Source of the DNA: Agrococcus jejuensis | GTDB taxonomy: Bacteria; Actinomycetota; Actinomycetes; Actinomycetales; Microbacteriaceae | DNA length: 64,000 nt | Reading direction: 5' to 3' | Assembly: GCF_900099705.1 (NCBI RefSeq) | Contig: NZ_LT629695.1 | Coordinates: 496,001 to 560,000 of the forward strand | Shown: positions 47,035 through 54,135 of the stretch, piece by piece | Layout: every line of letters begins with the position of its first letter | How positions within the stretch are numbered: position 1 is the stretch's first letter | The notes under the pieces: generated by a model | Seen by the model: only the letters and a program-made list of their open reading frames with translations | Databases searched by the model: none | Told to the model about the DNA's origin: nothing | Program-made: the position numbers and the translations under genes

Positions 47035-48389
47035 GGATGGTCCTCCAGAGGTCGGCGAGGTGCGCCATCGACGGTAGTCGCATCGCGCAGCGCCCCGCTG
47101 GGTGCATCCTGCACGGGGCCTGACGTCGACGTGGCGGTCGGCTGGGGCGCGCGGTCGCGGCCCGGGCGCGTCGCGGCGATCGCCGCGACGCAGCCTGCGA
47201 CGACGAACGCCGCCATCGCGAGCGAGAGGCCCGCGTAGCCCGCGAGGCCCAGGATCGGGCCAGCGATCGCGCCCGCCGCGGCGCCCGTGAGGCCCTGCAC
47301 GAGGTCGGAGCGGCCCTGGATGCGCGGGCGAGCGCGATCGGGCGCCGACTCGCTCACGAGCGTCGAGCCCGCGACGGTCGCCGCGCTCCAGCCGAGGCCG
47401 AGGAGGGCGAGCGACAGCGGCGCGAGGTCGGCGGGCAGCGCGACGTTCACGACGATCGAGCCGACGAGCAGCGCCTGCCCCACGAGGATCGTCTGCACCC
47501 TGCCCATCCGGTCGGCGAGGACGCCGAAGACCGGCGACAGCGCGTACATGCCCGCCGTGTGGGCGCTCATCGTGATGGCGATGCCCGTGAGCGAGTGGCC
47601 GGCGTGCTCGAGGTGCACGGGCGTGAGCGCCATGATGCCGACCATCGTCGCGTGCGCGCTCGCCACGACGACGATCGCGAGCAGGGCGCGGGGGTGGTCG
47701 AGGAGCCGGGTCTTCGTCGCTGCGGCGGTGCTCGTTCCGGGCTCGTCGCCGCGCATCGCCTGCGCCGTGAGCAGCGGATCCGGGCGCAGCCCGATCGCGA
47801 GCGCCGCAGCCGTCAGCGCCTGCATCGCGCCGACGATCACGTACGCGCCCACGAGGTGCGGCAGGCCCAGCGCGACGCCGATCGCGTCGCCCGGCGGGAT
47901 GAGCTGCGGACCGGCGACGACGCCGATCGTCGTCATCCACACGACGAGCGACAGGTCGCGGCCGCGCCGCGAGCGCACCGACAGGTCGGTCGCCGCGAAG
48001 CGCGACTGCAGGTTCACGGCCATGGAGGCGCCGAGCAGCAGGAAGCCGGCGAGCGCGATGGGCCACGCGTCGAGCGTGCCGCCGACGACGATCGTCGACG
48101 TGCCGGCGAGGCCGATGAGCGCGCCCGTCGTGAGCGCCGCCCTGCGCCCCCTGCGCGTCGCGAGGCGGGCGAGCGGCACGGCCAGGATCGCGCCGCCGAG
48201 CGTCAGCAGCGTGGCCGCGAGGCCCGCGAACGCCGCATCCCCCGTCACCTGCTCCACGAGCAGGCTGCCGACGCCCACCGCGACGCCGTTGCCGACACCG
48301 CCGAGCGCCTGCCCGATCGACAGCACCACGAGGGTGCGGCGCTGCGCGGGATGCTGGATGAGGCGGGGCTTGGGCACTGGCTGCGTCAC
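47031..48389 (-). CDS. MFS transporter
   Basis: 452 residues with twelve predicted helices. The MFS loop motif appears as [11 protein letters not shown] (between helices 8 and 9) and the first-half loop [13 protein letters not shown]-terminal [22 protein letters not shown]. Substrate unknown; drug/proton antiport is possible. Overlaps ispG (48386-48389) and MoxR by 4 nt each, so it is expressed with them. The C-terminal 45 residues are Pro/Ser-rich. Confidence 0.9.
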
Positions 48390-49537
48390 GAGCCCGACGT
48401 GACGACGGTCGGCTCGCCGGCCGGCAGGTCGGGGTTCTCGGCGGCGATGCGTCGCGCCTCCTCGATGAGCGTCGCGACGATCTCGGCCTCCGGCACGGTC
48501 TTGATGACCTCGCCCTTCACGAAGATCTGCCCCTTGCCGTTGCCGCTCGCGACGCCCAGGTCGGCCTCGCGCGCCTCCCCCGGACCGTTCACGACGCACC
48601 CCATCACAGCGACGCGCAGCGGCACCGTGACGTCCTTGAGGCCCTCGGTGACCTCGTCGGCGAGCGTGTACACGTCGACCTGCGCGCGGCCGCACGACGG
48701 GCACGACACGATCTCGAGGCGGCGCTCGCGCAGGCCGAGGGACTGCAGGATCTGCAGGCCGACCTTGACCTCCTCGGCCGGCGGGGCCGACAGCGAGACG
48801 CGGATGGTGTCGCCGATGCCCTCGCTGAGCAGGATGCCGAACGCCGTCGCCGACTTGATCGTGCCCTGGAACGCCGGGCCCGCCTCCGTCACGCCCAGGT
48901 GCAGCGGCCAGTCGCCCGCCTGCGCGAGCAGCCGGTACGCCTGCACCATCGTGACGGGGTCGTTGTGCTTCACCGAGATCTTGAAGTCGTGGAAGTCGTG
49001 CTCCTCGAAGAGGCTCGCCTCCCACACCGCCGACTCGACGAGCGCCTCGGGCGTCGCCTTGCCGTGCTTCTGCAGCAGGCTCGGCTCGAGGCTGCCGGCG
49101 TTGACGCCGATGCGCAGGCTCACGCCCGCCGCCTTCGCCCGCCTGGCGATCTCGCCGACCTGGTCGTCGAACTTGCGGATGTTGCCCGGGTTCACGCGCA
49201 CGGCGGCGCATCCCGCGTCGATCGCCGCGAAGACGTACTTCGGCTGGAAGTGGATGTCGGCGATCACCGGGATCTGCGACTTCCTCGCGATGATGTGCAG
49301 CACGTCGGCGTCGTCCTGCGTCGGCACCGCGACGCGCACGATGTCGCAGCCCGTCGCCGTGAGCTCGGCGATCTGCTGCAGCGTGCCGTTGATGTCGGTC
49401 GTCTTCGTCGTCGTCATCGACTGCACCGACACGGGCGCGTCGCTGCCCACCGCCACGCTGCCCACGCGGATCTGCCGGGTGCGCCGCCTGGGCGCGAGCG
49501 TGCGCACCTCCGGCGTGCCGAGGTTGATGGCGGCCAT
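48386..49537 (-). CDS. ispG: (E)-4-hydroxy-3-methylbut-2-enyl-diphosphate synthase
   Basis: 383 residues. It performs the next-to-last step of the MEP isoprenoid pathway. Iron-sulfur ligands are in CPSCGR and [13 protein letters not shown]-barrel motifs include [22 protein letters not shown] and [11 protein letters not shown] at 49537 is supported by TAGGGT 7 nt upstream. It heads an unusual operon continuing with MFS, MoxR, DUF58 and vWA genes. dxr and rseP, normally adjacent, lie across an interrupted region. Confidence 0.97.
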
Positions 49538-49544
49538 GGTCACC

Positions 49545-49550
49545 ACCCTA
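49545..49550 (-). promoter_or_regulatory. -10 element of ispG
   Basis: TAGGGT, 7 nt before the ATG at 49537; 30 bp from repeat element A. Confidence 0.6.
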
Positions 49551-49580
49551 CGGCGGCCGTCCTCCCGCTTCGCCGTCCTT

Positions 49581-49697
49581 GACTGGTCACAGTTGCACCC
49601 CGACTGGTCGCAGTTGCACCTGACTGGTCGCACTTTCGATTCGACTGGTCGCAATTGCACCGCACTGGTCGCTGTTTCGGTGCAATTGCGACCAGTC
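49581..49697 (-). repeat. Composite short-repeat element A
   Basis: Units of about 19 bp. On the plus strand: GACTGGTCACAGTTGCACC (49581-49599), GACTGGTCGCAGTTGCACC (49602-49620), a variant at 49622, GACTGGTCGCAATTGCACC (49643-49661), a variant at 49664, then one inverted unit (49679-49697). Read on the minus strand the order is forward, variant, inverted, variant, inverted, inverted: the same order as elements B and C. It lies in the divergent gap between ispG and the DUF559 gene. Confidence 0.92.
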
Positions 49698-49772
49698 ACG
49701 CGCTGGAGCGGCAGGCGCGTCCCTCACAGGTCCGCTGCGTCCACAGGCCGCGCGACCGCGGCCCGACATCGC

Positions 49773-49795
49773 GGCGGAGGCGAGCATCCTCCGCC
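49773..49795 (+). promoter_or_regulatory. Hairpin covering the possible ribosome binding site of the DUF559 gene
   Basis: GGCGGAGG (49773-49780) pairs with CCTCCGCC (49788-49795), loop 7 nt, ending 1 nt before the ATG. The GGAGG would be hidden in the stem, which suggests low or regulated translation. Confidence 0.45.
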
Positions 49796-49796
49796 C

Positions 49797-50702
49797 ATGA
49801 GCCATCTCCTCCCGCCGAGCCCCGACCACCGCGCATTCAGCGTCGCCGACGCGCTCGCCGACGGCGCGACGCGTCGCGAGCTCGCCGGCCACGGCTACCT
49901 CGCGCCCGCCTACGGCACGCGCATCCAGCGTTCGGACGATGGCACCATCACGCGAGCGCAGTTCCTGGATGCGCTCAGATCGGTCGCGCGCGACGACCAG
50001 TTCCTCTCGCACGCCACCGCGGCGCTCGTGCACGGCATGCCCATCCCGCTCGCGTTCCAGACCGGCCCCGTGCATCTCGCGTCGCCCACGCTCGGGCATC
50101 GCATGCGACGCCCGGGCGTCGTCGGACATCGCCTCAAGGCCGAGATCGTGGAGGTCGACGGGATCCGCGTCGAGCATCCGCACGACGCGTTCATCCATCT
50201 CGCGACGCTGCTGCCGCTGCATCCGCTCGTGGCCGTCGCAGACTGGCTCCTGCAAGAGCGCAACGGCGTGCCGACAACGAAGCAGGCGCTCGTCGAGCGC
50301 CTCGATCACTTCCGCGGTGCTCGTGGGCTGTCGCTGCTCCGTCGAGCGATCACGCTCGCACGGCACGGCGTCGAGTCGCCGCGAGAGAACGAGTTGCGAC
50401 TGCTCGTGACAGCCGCCGGCCATGCCGAGCCCGTCTGCAACATCGACGTCGTCGACGTCGATGGCCGGTTCCTCGCGCGCGTCGACATGGCGTGGCCGGA
50501 GCTGCGGATCGCCCTCGAGTACGACGGCGAGCAGCATCGGCTCGACGACCGGCAGTACGCACGGGACATCGAGCGATCCGCGATTCTCGAGCAGCACGGA
50601 TGGATCGTCATCCGCGTGACGAAGCAGCACATGGCGTCGCCGGCGACACGGGTCCTCCCGCGCGTCGCGGAGGCCTTCGCCCGCCGACGTCTCCAGGGCT
50701 GA
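49797..50702 (+). CDS. DUF559-domain (VSR-fold) nuclease-like protein
   Basis: 301 residues. The N-terminal half looks like the AbiEi/DUF559-type helical region (FLSHATAALVHGMPIP, about 69-84). The C-terminal half has the Vsr-like endonuclease pattern: E193/E197 in ESPRENELRLL, D230 in ARVDMAWP and EYDGEQH (241-247), all consistent with a metal-dependent nuclease. Such genes are multicopy in Microbacteriaceae; activity is unproven. The final stop codon overlaps the first bases of repeat element B. The start codon follows a hairpin. GC appears a little lower than its neighbours. Confidence 0.82.
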   Translation: MSHLLPPSPDHRAFSVADALADGATRRELAGHGYLAPAYGTRIQRSDDGTITRAQFLDALRSVARDDQFLSHATAALVHGMPIPLAFQTGPVHLASPTLGHRMRRPGVVGHRLKAEIVEVDGIRVEHPHDAFIHLATLLPLHPLVAVADWLLQERNGVPTTKQALVERLDHFRGARGLSLLRRAITLARHGVESPRENELRLLVTAAGHAEPVCNIDVVDVDGRFLARVDMAWPELRIALEYDGEQHRLDDRQYARDIERSAILEQHGWIVIRVTKQHMASPATRVLPRVAEAFARRRLQG

Positions 50703-50796
50703 CTGGTCACAGTTGCACCGAAACTGCGACCAGTGCGGTGCAATTGCGACCAGTCGAATCGGAACTGTGACCAGTCCGGTGCAACTGCGACCAGTC
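50701..50796 (+). repeat. Composite short-repeat element B
   Basis: One forward unit GACTGGTCACAGTTGCACC (50701-50719), a variant inverted unit (about 50720-50735), inverted GGTGCAATTGCGACCAGTC (50737-50755), a variant (50762-50776) and inverted GGTGCAACTGCGACCAGTC (50778-50796). It separates the convergent DUF559 and rseP genes. Confidence 0.92.
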
Positions 50797-50810
50797 CCGA
50801 GCGGGACGAG

Positions 50811-52139
50811 TCAGGGGAGGATCGAGATGGGGTTGATGATGTCGGCATAGATGAGCAGGGCGCTCATCAGGCCGAGCACCACCGTGACCGCGAGGGTCAC
50901 GGGCACCCAGCGGGCCGTGTCGATCGGGCCGGGATCCGGCTTGCCGCGCAGGCGGGCGAAGCCGCGGCGGATCGCCTCGAGCACCGCGCCGAGCACGTGC
51001 CCGCCGTCGAGCGGCATGAGCGGCACGAGGTTGAAGACGAACAGCGCGACGTTGAGCGACGCGAGGATGCCGAGCATCGACGACGCGCGCTCGGCGATCG
51101 GCACCTGGTCGAGCGACGCGATCTCGCCCGCGATGCGACCGACGCCCACGACGGAGATCGGCCCCTCGGGGTCGCGCTCGCCGCCGCCGAACGCCGCCTG
51201 CGCCACCTCGACGAGGCGCACGGGCAGCGTCGCGATGACCTGCGCCACGCGCACGACGTTGTCGCCGACCGCGACGGGCACCTCGGCGATCGACTGCTGC
51301 ACGATCTCGTACTGCGGCCCGATGCCGATGAACCCGACGGTCTCGACCTGCGGCTCGCCGTCGACCTCGACGATCTGACCGTCGGCATCCGTCACGTACC
51401 GCTCGGTCGCGAGCGGCGTCACCTGCAGGTCGACCTCGGCGCCGTCGCGCTCGACCGTGAACGTGAGCTCCTGACCGGCGTCGTCGCGGATGCCCGCCTG
51501 CACGTCGGCCCACGACGCGATGGGCGCGCCGTCGATCGCGACGATGACGTCGCCTGGCTCGATGCCGGCAGCGGCGGCCGGCGCCGCGGGGTCGGACGCC
51601 TCGCACGTCGTGCGGTCCTGGCTCGCCGGGATGACGCACTCCGACAGCGACGAGATCGTCGTGCCCGGCTGCGCGACGCCGAAGCCGCACAGCACGATCG
51701 CGTAGAGCACCGCCGCGAGCAGCAGGTTCATGAACGGCCCGCCGAGCATGATGACGATGCGCTTCCACACCGGCAGGCGGTAGAACGTGCGGTCCTCCCC
51801 CACGCCCTCCGCCGACTCCGCGGACACCTCGCGCGCATCCTGCACGAGCGTGTCGAAGAAGCCGGTGGATGCCGTGCGGGCCGCCTCGCCCTCGCGGCGC
51901 GGCGGGAACATGCCCGCCATCGAGATGTAGCCGCCGAGCGGGATGGCCTTGAGGCCGTACTCCGTCTCGCCCTTCCTGCGCGAGAAGAGCGTCGGCCCGA
52001 AGCCGATCATGTACTGGCCCACGCGCACGCCGAAGCGCTTCGCCGGCACGAGATGGCCGACCTCGTGGAGCGCGATCGAGGCCGCGAGGCCGACCACGAG
52101 GATGACGACGCCGAGGACGTAGAGCAGGACCGAATCCAT
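50811..52139 (-). CDS. rseP: Site-2 protease, M50 family (RseP/Rip1-like)
   Basis: 442 residues. Zinc motif HEVGH (H25, E26, H29) in the first helix, a PDZ domain (about 155-250: GIEPGDVIVAIDGAPIASWADVQ), and the LMPLDGGHVLGAVLEAIR segment with the third zinc ligand near the C-terminus. It cleaves membrane-anchored regulators such as anti-sigma factors within the bilayer. TAGCAT lies 9 nt before the ATG. In actinobacteria it normally sits between dxr and ispG; the order is kept but the intervals are interrupted. Confidence 0.93.
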   Translation of the reverse strand: MDSVLLYVLGVVILVVGLAASIALHEVGHLVPAKRFGVRVGQYMIGFGPTLFSRRKGETEYGLKAIPLGGYISMAGMFPPRREGEAARTASTGFFDTLVQDAREVSAESAEGVGEDRTFYRLPVWKRIVIMLGGPFMNLLLAAVLYAIVLCGFGVAQPGTTISSLSECVIPASQDRTTCEASDPAAPAAAAGIEPGDVIVAIDGAPIASWADVQAGIRDDAGQELTFTVERDGAEVDLQVTPLATERYVTDADGQIVEVDGEPQVETVGFIGIGPQYEIVQQSIAEVPVAVGDNVVRVAQVIATLPVRLVEVAQAAFGGGERDPEGPISVVGVGRIAGEIASLDQVPIAERASSMLGILASLNVALFVFNLVPLMPLDGGHVLGAVLEAIRRGFARLRGKPDPGPIDTARWVPVTLAVTVVLGLMSALLIYADIINPISILP

Positions 52140-52214
52140 CGCCTGCCGATGCTACGCGGCGATGCTGTGGGTCGCGCCACGCGTCGGGCATGGCTCGCCC
52201 ATGGGCTGCGCGCC

Positions 52215-52220
52215 TAGCCT
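52215..52220 (+). promoter_or_regulatory. -10 element of the lysozyme-like gene
   Basis: TAGCCT, 6 nt before the GTG at 52227; leaderless pattern. Confidence 0.6.
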
Positions 52221-52226
52221 TGCCGG

Positions 52227-52883
52227 GTGCCCGCATCCACCCGCTCCCGACGTGCGCCCGCGCGTCGGCGGTCGAGCGGTGCTCGGAAGCCGAGGTCGGC
52301 GGCGGCTCGCGCGCGCCTCGCAGCGCAGGATCGGCGCCGCGTCGGCATCGCGACCGGCCTCGTCGCGGCAGCGACGGTCGCGATCGTCGTGCTCGCGTGG
52401 GTGCTCCAGCCGCGCATCGAGCCGTGGGAGCAGACCGCGACCGTCACGGGCGACGTGCCCTCGGGCGTCGCCGGCTGGGATCGCGAGCAGCTGACGAACG
52501 CCGCGATCATCCTGCAGGCGGGCGCCGACCTCGGACTCTCGGACCGCGACCGCACCATCGCGGTCATGACGGCGATGGGCGAGTCGAGCCTCATCGTCGT
52601 CGACTTCGGCGACGACGCCGGCCCCGACTCCCGCGGCCTGTTCCAGCAGCGCACCGGATGGGGCCCGTACGAGGTGCGGATGGATGCGTACGGCTCGGCC
52701 GTGCTCTTCTACCAGGCGCTCGACGACGTGGCCGCGCGCGACGGCATGGCGCCGACGATCGTCGCGCACACGGTGCAGGTGAACCAGGATCCGTACCACT
52801 ACGAGTCGTACTGGGACGACGCCGTCGCGGTCGTCGCTGCGCTGGATGCGGCGCAGATCGCCGTGGAGGTCGCGCCCGCCTGA
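52227..52883 (+). CDS. Membrane-anchored lytic-transglycosylase-like protein
   Basis: 218 residues. A strongly basic N-terminus of 40 residues, one helix (about 40-60), then a domain with NAAIILQAGADLGLSDRDRTIAVMTAMGESSL and SRGLFQQRTGWG (135-146). Glu119 in GESSL followed by SxGLFQQR is the usual lysozyme/SLT-fold catalytic layout. It may trim peptidoglycan on the outer face of the membrane. GTG start, leaderless. It is coded against dxr and rseP and is followed by repeat element C. Confidence 0.78.
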   Translation: MPASTRSRRAPARRRSSGARKPRSAAARARLAAQDRRRVGIATGLVAAATVAIVVLAWVLQPRIEPWEQTATVTGDVPSGVAGWDREQLTNAAIILQAGADLGLSDRDRTIAVMTAMGESSLIVVDFGDDAGPDSRGLFQQRTGWGPYEVRMDAYGSAVLFYQALDDVAARDGMAPTIVAHTVQVNQDPYHYESYWDDAVAVVAALDAAQIAVEVAPA

Positions 52884-52902
52884 GGCGCTGTGGCCGGTCC
52901 TC

Positions 52903-53019
52903 GACTGGTCACAGTTGCACCGAAACGGCGACCACTCTGGTGCAACTGCGACCAGTCGGAGCGAAACTCTGACCAGTCAGGTGCAACTGCGACCAGTCCA
53001 AGTGCAACTGTGACCAGTC
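52903..53019 (+). repeat. Composite short-repeat element C
   Basis: Forward unit GACTGGTCACAGTTGCACC (52903-52921), a variant at about 52922, inverted GGTGCAACTGCGACCAGTC (52939-52957), a variant (52963-52978), inverted (52980-52998) and a sixth, degenerate inverted unit (53001-53019). Same unit order as B; same orientation. It separates two convergent genes. Confidence 0.92.
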
Positions 53020-53034
53020 GGCGCGGACAGCGGG

Positions 53035-54135
53035 TCAGGAGGACGCGGCGGAGGCAGCGATCTGGGCGTCGGCGGCGGAGCGAGCCCACGACTCGGCGGC
53101 GGCGATCGCAGCGAGGGTCGCGGGGACGGCGTCGTGCGCGTCGAGCACGCGCTCGACGACGGCGAGGACGTCGAGGAAGCCGATGCGACCGTCGAGGAAG
53201 GCGTGCACCGCCTGCTCGTTCGCCGCGTTCAGCACCGCGGGCGCCGTGCCGCCGCGCGCGGCCGCGGCGCGCGAGAGGCGGATGCCCGCGAGCGGGCCGT
53301 CGTCGTCGACGGGCTCGAAGGTCCAGGTGGATGCGCGCGTCCAGTCCAGCGGAGCGACCGCATCCGGCACCCGCGCGCCCCCGTCGAGGGCGAGCGCGAT
53401 CGCGAGCGCCATGTCGGGCGGCGAGCACTGCGCGATCGTCGAGCCGTCGACGAACTCGACCATCGAGTGCACGATCGACTGCCGGTGCACCGTCACGGCG
53501 ACGTCGTCGAGCGGCACGCCGAAGAGCGCGTGCGCCTCGATGACCTCGTGCCCCTTGTTCATGAGCGTCGCCGAGTTCGTCGAGATGACGCGCCCCATCG
53601 ACCACGTCGGATGCGCGAGCGCATCCGCGGGCGTCACCGAGGCGAGCCGCGCGCGATCCCACCCGTGGAACGGCCCGCCGCTCGCCGTGAGCACCAGCCG
53701 CCGCACCTCGTCGGCGCGGCCTGCGGCGAGGCACTGCGCGATCGCCGAGTGCTCCGAGTCGACCGGCACGATCTGCCCCGGCGCCGCCGCAGCCATCACG
53801 AGCTCGCCGCCGACGACGAGCGACTCCTTGTTCGCGAGCGCGAGCGTCGCCCCGGTGCCGAGCGCCGCGAGCGTCGGCGCGAGCCCCGCCGACCCCGTGA
53901 TGCCGTTCACGACGACGTCGCACTCGACGTCCTCGATCAGCCGCACGGCATCCGCGGCGCCGAGCGCCGTCGCCGAGGCGGGCACGCCCAGCGCCTCCGC
54001 CTGCGCCGCGAGCCCGCCGGCATCCGAACCCGCCGCGAGCCCGACGACCGAGAACCGGCCGGGATGCGCGCGCACGAGCTCGATGGTCTGCGTGCCGATC
54101 GACCCCGTCGATCCGAGCAGCAGGATGCGTCTCAC
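53035..54135 (-). CDS. dxr: 1-deoxy-D-xylulose-5-phosphate reductoisomerase
   Basis: 366 residues. It makes MEP, the second pathway step, with NADPH. Cofactor motif GSTGSIG (8-14), ANKESLVVGG, the metal site around VDSEHSAI, substrate loop TASGGPFHG, and ATLMNKGHEVIEAHALF. GTG start at 54135 overlaps the preceding OsmC gene by 4 nt. ispG is 3.5 kb downstream on the same strand. Confidence 0.97.
   Translation of the reverse strand: MRRILLLGSTGSIGTQTIELVRAHPGRFSVVGLAAGSDAGGLAAQAEALGVPASATALGAADAVRLIEDVECDVVVNGITGSAGLAPTLAALGTGATLALANKESLVVGGELVMAAAAPGQIVPVDSEHSAIAQCLAAGRADEVRRLVLTASGGPFHGWDRARLASVTPADALAHPTWSMGRVISTNSATLMNKGHEVIEAHALFGVPLDDVAVTVHRQSIVHSMVEFVDGSTIAQCSPPDMALAIALALDGGARVPDAVAPLDWTRASTWTFEPVDDDGPLAGIRLSRAAAARGGTAPAVLNAANEQAVHAFLDGRIGFLDVLAVVERVLDAHDAVPATLAAIAAAESWARSAADAQIAASAASS

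Follow-up and report, generated by a model that had tools for sequence, protein, structure and literature searches.

What copies an ordered, palindromic repeat through a bacterial chromosome, and why should two such repeats enclose a single gene? These questions are raised by a stretch of 64,000 nucleotides from Agrococcus jejuensis (hereafter the window; positions 496001–560000 of genome G000, a single contig of 3,400,078 bases, 3.40 Mb), in which a preliminary description had noticed three ordered composite repeats, A, B and C, and had left their function open between terminators, protein-binding arrays and mobile cassettes. Hidden from that description was a nuclease gene enclosed between A and B, and the recurrence of this bracketing in other species with other repeat families. 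This recurrence suggests a partnership between the enzyme and repeats that the enzyme helps spread. Our reading, to which we give a probability of roughly 0.55, is that the arrays are non-autonomous dispersed palindromes depending on a chromosomal nuclease gene that they bracket. The features concerned are as follows.

Element A, 49581–49697, minus strand: five forward units and then one inverted unit when read on the plus strand, with its core at 49644–49696; the upstream flank of the nuclease gene.
Nuclease gene, 49797–50702, plus strand: 301 amino acids, DUF559 (PF04480) / REase_MTES_1575-like, with A and B on either side.
Element B, 50701–50796, plus strand: one forward unit and four inverted units, the first unit overlapping the nuclease gene's stop codon.
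Element C, 52903–53019, plus strand: one forward unit and five inverted units; a dispersed copy between convergent genes.

The three repeats share one symmetric layout, with forward units to the left of a single centre, inverted units to the right, and arms of one to five units. Coordinates and unit order were confirmed on the sequence, as was the opposite orientation of A, whose layout matches that of B and C once reverse-complemented. The described alternation of full and shortened units is real, except that the shortened unit adjoining the forward unit belongs to the symmetry centre. The unit CTGGTCRCARTTGCACC has 11 matches in the window with up to three mismatches, against 0.33 expected (100 shuffles, largest count 2). 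Folded as single strands, A, B and C are far better than shuffled sequences (hairpin z −5.6 to −6.5), and none contains a run of four or more T.

The geometry of the window is repeated across the genome, where the unit has 91 matches with at most two mismatches and a reversed control pattern has one. In the stretches fetched from G000, the starts of a forward and an inverted full unit are separated by 35 bp in 30 cores; the remaining 26 forward/inverted pairs within 79 bp are spaced 55–57 or 76–77 bp and represent the next units outward. Neighbouring units on the same strand most often follow each other at 20 bp (64 cases), 21 bp (35) or 22 bp (15), about two helical turns, and the commonest gap where the strands meet is 26 bp between 7-base cores (31 cases). 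Thirty cores of one geometry support the proposal that the whole element was copied rather than single units; it was such further copies, and not units standing alone, that the genome search returned. They also lie in extragenic space: none of the 36 elements kept for this count is inside a called gene, four irregular core clusters inside genes having been left out of the set. The repeats are hence inverted, hairpin-forming pairs of palindromic units, intergenic and present in many copies. Other families in G000 have a common GACTGGTC core with different inner sequence (CTCGTGGTGG and others), and sometimes adjoin the first family within one array. About two-thirds of the elements lie within one-fifth of the chromosome (C1:1470000–2155000), perhaps around the terminus.

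Homologs of the nuclease gene in Agrococcus are commonly bracketed by arrays. We examined 32 homologs with at least 44% identity, out of 34 matched stretches of which the last two are fragments. A fixed array detector applied to 27 of these homologs found arrays on both sides in 15, on one side in eight and on neither in four, and the arrays converge in 14 of the 15 flanked on both sides. Five additional homologs include one with arrays on both sides (convergent by reading) and four without, so that 20-bp arrays adjoin 24 of the 32 on at least one side. Among the eight that the detector left negative, seven show paired palindromes by eye (L313, L314, L316, L317, L392, L393 and L395), and L394 has a palindrome on one side and the contig end on the other. 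The window gene lies between neighbours that we take, from their reading frames, to be ispG and rseP; as a control, 26 ispG/rseP loci (111,827 bases) gave one array, the detector having missed a 9-unit array at control locus L132 that Tandem Repeats Finder (TRF) shows. Going by gene names that we likewise assume from the sequences, the nuclease sites fall between a response-regulator gene and one resembling a thioesterase (16 loci), ispG–rseP (3), typA–luciferase-like (4) and purK–purE (2), with three ungrouped. Given at least four chromosomal sites, the gene has moved at times and yet seems mostly vertically inherited, in the manner of a RAYT (repetitive extragenic palindrome-associated tyrosine transposase). 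The nuclease homologs at G006:C1:906531–907389 and 216636–217480 are in separate pieces and are apparently broken genes.

The association of enzyme and repeats, strong overall, extends beyond Agrococcus. For 48 homologs from other Microbacteriaceae we compared the 500 bp upstream of the gene with the reverse-complemented 500 bp downstream of it, using as controls 525 genes from this bacterial family with nucleases among them left in; L342 was dropped as too short. Both flanks shared a matching inverted element, with a score of at least 20, in 25 of the 48 homologs versus one of the 525 controls, and that lone control gene is itself a DUF559-type nuclease. At score thresholds of 15, 18, 20, 25 and 30, the homologs number 32, 28, 25, 17 and 12, and the controls 33, 2, 1, 0 and 0. 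Among the 25 matched homologs, palindromy exceeds the control 95th percentile in 18 of the elements upstream and 20 of those downstream. Beyond this bacterial family, four of five homologs from the plasmid collection are also bracketed (three Arthrobacter and one Tsukamurella; the Nonomuraea homolog is not). Plasmid or phage carriage of the gene itself was rejected: 5 of 72,556 and 1 of 50,697 records match, none at more than 36% identity.

Dispersed repeats tend to match the nuclease flanks of their own genome. In 11 of the 16 Agrococcus genomes with enough units, the dispersed units match the flank units of the resident nuclease best (mean rank 2.7; none of 5000 permutations was as low). The prediction was also borne out in another genus, where geometry alone revealed five ACTGGTC-N19-GACCAGT palindromes in genome G300, and all five match both flanks of the nuclease L369 (scores 26–46.5; shuffled maximum 13.5). 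Relatives of flanking palindromes comprise one in 200 kb of G067 (E 5e-10) and, in 200 kb from G026, a single diverged one (E 5e-4). In G026, the flanks of paralogs L333 and L372 and the dispersed palindrome L355 have a nearly common outer CTGTTCGCC and differ in the inner part; the same pattern of constant outer core and variable inner part is seen in Agrococcus. An initial impression that paralogs lie away from elements proved wrong, as the flanks of three nuclease paralogs carry other repeat families. We gave up testing whether genomes with the nuclease are also those with arrays, since in genomes that lack GANTGG arrays the homologs are flanked by elements of other kinds (L309, L312).

The gene product is probably a DNA-cutting enzyme, to judge from its predicted structure (pLDDT 92.7), which combines an AbiEi-like part with a nuclease resembling Vsr and homing endonucleases. 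Residues 8–189 adopt the fold of AbiEi antitoxins (6y8q, 1zel) in the model, and the catalytic domain has the predicted fold of Vsr-like and EDxHD nucleases. Pfam DUF559 is matched with a score of 27.6, above the cut-off of 20.6, and matches in NCBIfam and PADLOC are weak only. E197, R201, D230, Y242, G244, H247, D257, R260 and W269 are invariant in 36 homologs; E197, D230, H247 and D257 are candidate EDxHD residues. Orthologs with different unit families diverge most in the N-terminal part, where identity is 0.60 and 0.43, versus 0.72 and 0.67 in the nuclease part.

The AbiEi-like part may bind the ~20-bp units, which would line proteins up next to each other, two helical turns apart, in rows that converge on the palindrome at the centre. 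This proposal draws on AbiEi, which binds 23-bp inverted repeats (PMC7319586). The Vsr/homing-endonuclease-like domain would then nick or cut at the palindromic centre, and repair from another array could copy the element to new places or overwrite an older family in place. The nuclease gene might, moreover, be repressed by binding at A.

From one Agrococcus species to another, arrays stay at orthologous sites and the sequence of their units changes. G009 matches the window from 48300 to 54000 over the full length at 87%, and the intergenes of A, B and C hold arrays of a CTCGTKG family there and of a GCCACGAACGG family in G023. Among G000 sites with at least three cores and a located orthologous intergene (with anchors in some cases over 1 kb away from the element), at least two cores are kept at 18 of 21 sites in G009 and 13 of 22 in G023, compared with 10 of 615 random 200-bp pieces; the kept fractions are upper estimates because the G009 and G023 loci were picked partly for holding arrays and partly by synteny. 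The dominant family differs between G000 and G009 at nine of the 18 kept sites (by reading; for B with an alignment). Taking the ACTGGTC core for the whole family proved too narrow, as it occurs in 3 of 60 genomes, each of them from this genus, and in 6 of 24 genus genomes. The broader GANTGGYSRC pattern at a 20-bp period, with one mismatch, matches in 20 of the 24 genomes of the genus (each genome giving 0 to 4 matches to reversed controls) and underestimates the GAGTGGCGCC families (G017 counts 1 and G010 counts 0). Allowing no mismatch, it is found in 16 of 398 genomes of the family, eight of them Agrococcus with 2 to 49 matches and eight others with one each. About 43 identical head-to-tail 20-bp units stand at G012:C1:1554940–1555789, probably a recent expansion of one unit. 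The first 400 bases of contigs C5 and C7 of G011 begin inside 20-bp arrays; arrays may therefore break assemblies, and counts from draft genomes may be low. An intergenic CTCGTCGAGGAGC / GTCACGAGACC repeat family replaces the array in the G009 and G023 orthologs of G000:1948380 and at L138 and L119 (G006).

Several observations weigh against a nuclease-dependent origin of the arrays. Scores fall below 20 in 23 of the 48 non-Agrococcus homologs and below 15 in 16, some of these being partial matches, and a second G300 homolog, L377, scores just 14. The own-family test has exceptions in G023 (rank 8 of 16), where the loci were partly picked by another family's pattern, and G004 (rank 14). Other single genes in G000 also seem to sit between two arrays, and arrays are so dense there that A and B alone prove nothing. 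The window protein scores 32.5 against Pfam MTES_1575, below the cut-off of 38.2, and homolog L313 matches neither DUF559 nor MTES_1575. Finally, the comparisons yielded no readable insertion accompanied by a target duplication, the array-free G009 or G023 sites being too diverged.

Among competing explanations, the one that survives best, although we consider it unlikely, is that nothing moves and the flanks are AbiEi-type autoregulatory sites, with the dispersed copies serving as a regulon or as decoys. AbiEi and Rv2827c each bind 23-bp inverted repeats upstream of the gene that encodes them (PMC7319586), A lies about 100 bp ahead of the nuclease start codon, and the arrays endure at orthologous sites. 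However, B is downstream of the gene and such downstream copies recur, convergent gene ends hold more than their share of the elements (13 of 34), and 30 copies of one core in G000, together with the long array of identical units in G012, resemble copying. Passive repeat dynamics are less probable still: slippage or template switching would make the repeats, gene conversion would spread them, and the nuclease gene would merely lie inside. The strong single-strand hairpins, the long near-identical arrays and the change of unit sequence at one and the same site all agree with such an origin, which nevertheless leaves unexplained why this family is bracketed when 524 of 525 controls are not, and why the G300 palindromes match the nuclease flanks.

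A role for the arrays as bidirectional transcription terminators, or as stabilizers of mRNA ends, is very unlikely. Of the 34 intergenes with an element, 13 are convergent, 8 divergent and 13 codirectional, compared with 20, 36 and 81 of the 137 intergenes without one (chi-square over three classes, p 0.006); the nuclease gene escaped the rough gene caller, A and B being counted there as a single codirectional intergene, and two elements share an intergene with another element. The elements thus favor gene ends, and they form hairpins, yet they are not terminators only: the eight divergent and 13 codirectional intergenes argue against termination as the sole function, and the lack of T runs in A, B and C and the occupation of one site by different unit families in different species also speak against it. 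Of the functions left open in the preliminary description, termination alone is unlikely, and a protein-binding array and a mobile cassette both fit and are perhaps one thing. Most improbable are REPINs (paired repetitive extragenic palindromes, REPs) moved by a RAYT, or miniature inverted-repeat transposable elements (MITEs) of an unseen insertion sequence, which are similar in layout and dispersal; the RAYT as driver was rejected on the absence of matches to the Y1 (HUH, RAYT-kind) transposase PF01797 in all 24 genus genomes (the control registers in 5 of 14 genomes), and no insertion sequence with such ends turned up, a systematic search not having been made.

The system is not REPIN/RAYT, yet it seems to work like one. 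As in REPIN/RAYT (PMC3116915, PMC8049555), paired palindromes are dispersed between genes in several families per genome, each family stands beside its own enzyme gene, and the enzyme seems mostly vertically inherited. Here too the enzyme gene carries its own repeat family on its flanks, but the enzyme is a different one: a Vsr-like nuclease with an AbiEi-like domain instead of an HUH Y1 transposase. The tandem arrays of 20-bp units in Agrococcus are a further difference, and the GTAG/CGTC tag of many REPs (PMC3733652) was not found in the core consensus read from the copies. Nor is it an AbiEi system. The likeness to the type IV antitoxin lies in the fold of residues 8–189 (PMC7319586), whereas here that fold is fused to a nuclease and the repeats are dispersed genome-wide. 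The catalytic domain resembles I-Bth0305I (3r3p; EDxHD family, PMC6083498) and Vsr (1cw0) in fold. A possible difference from a homing endonuclease is that the window nuclease lies between genes and its flanking repeats seem to spread more than the gene; unlike TnsA with Tn7-type ends, one gene stands alone between the arrays. No AbiEii toxin gene was recognized, no search aimed at one having been made, among the neighbouring reading frames, which in our assignment resemble ispG and rseP instead. In the open literature, we found no link of DUF559 or MTES_1575 nucleases to dispersed palindromes. The newness of the system rests on this lack of precedent and on the unrelated enzyme, and is smaller if any pair of an enzyme and dispersed palindromes is counted as one kind.

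A wider proposal can be offered tentatively, at somewhat less than even odds: across actinobacteria, AbiEi–Vsr fusion nucleases would home their own operator-like palindromes to other chromosomal places, a change in the DNA-binding part would lead to the overwriting of the old family at its sites, and the whole is a convergent counterpart of REPIN/RAYT. If this is true, unrelated nucleases would have given rise to lasting partnerships of enzymes and repeats on two occasions or more, and antitoxin-like DNA binding would be tied to the origin of dispersed repeats. Many unnamed "DUF559 domain" genes and unexplained intergenic palindromes of actinobacteria would then share one explanation, testable in laboratory strains.

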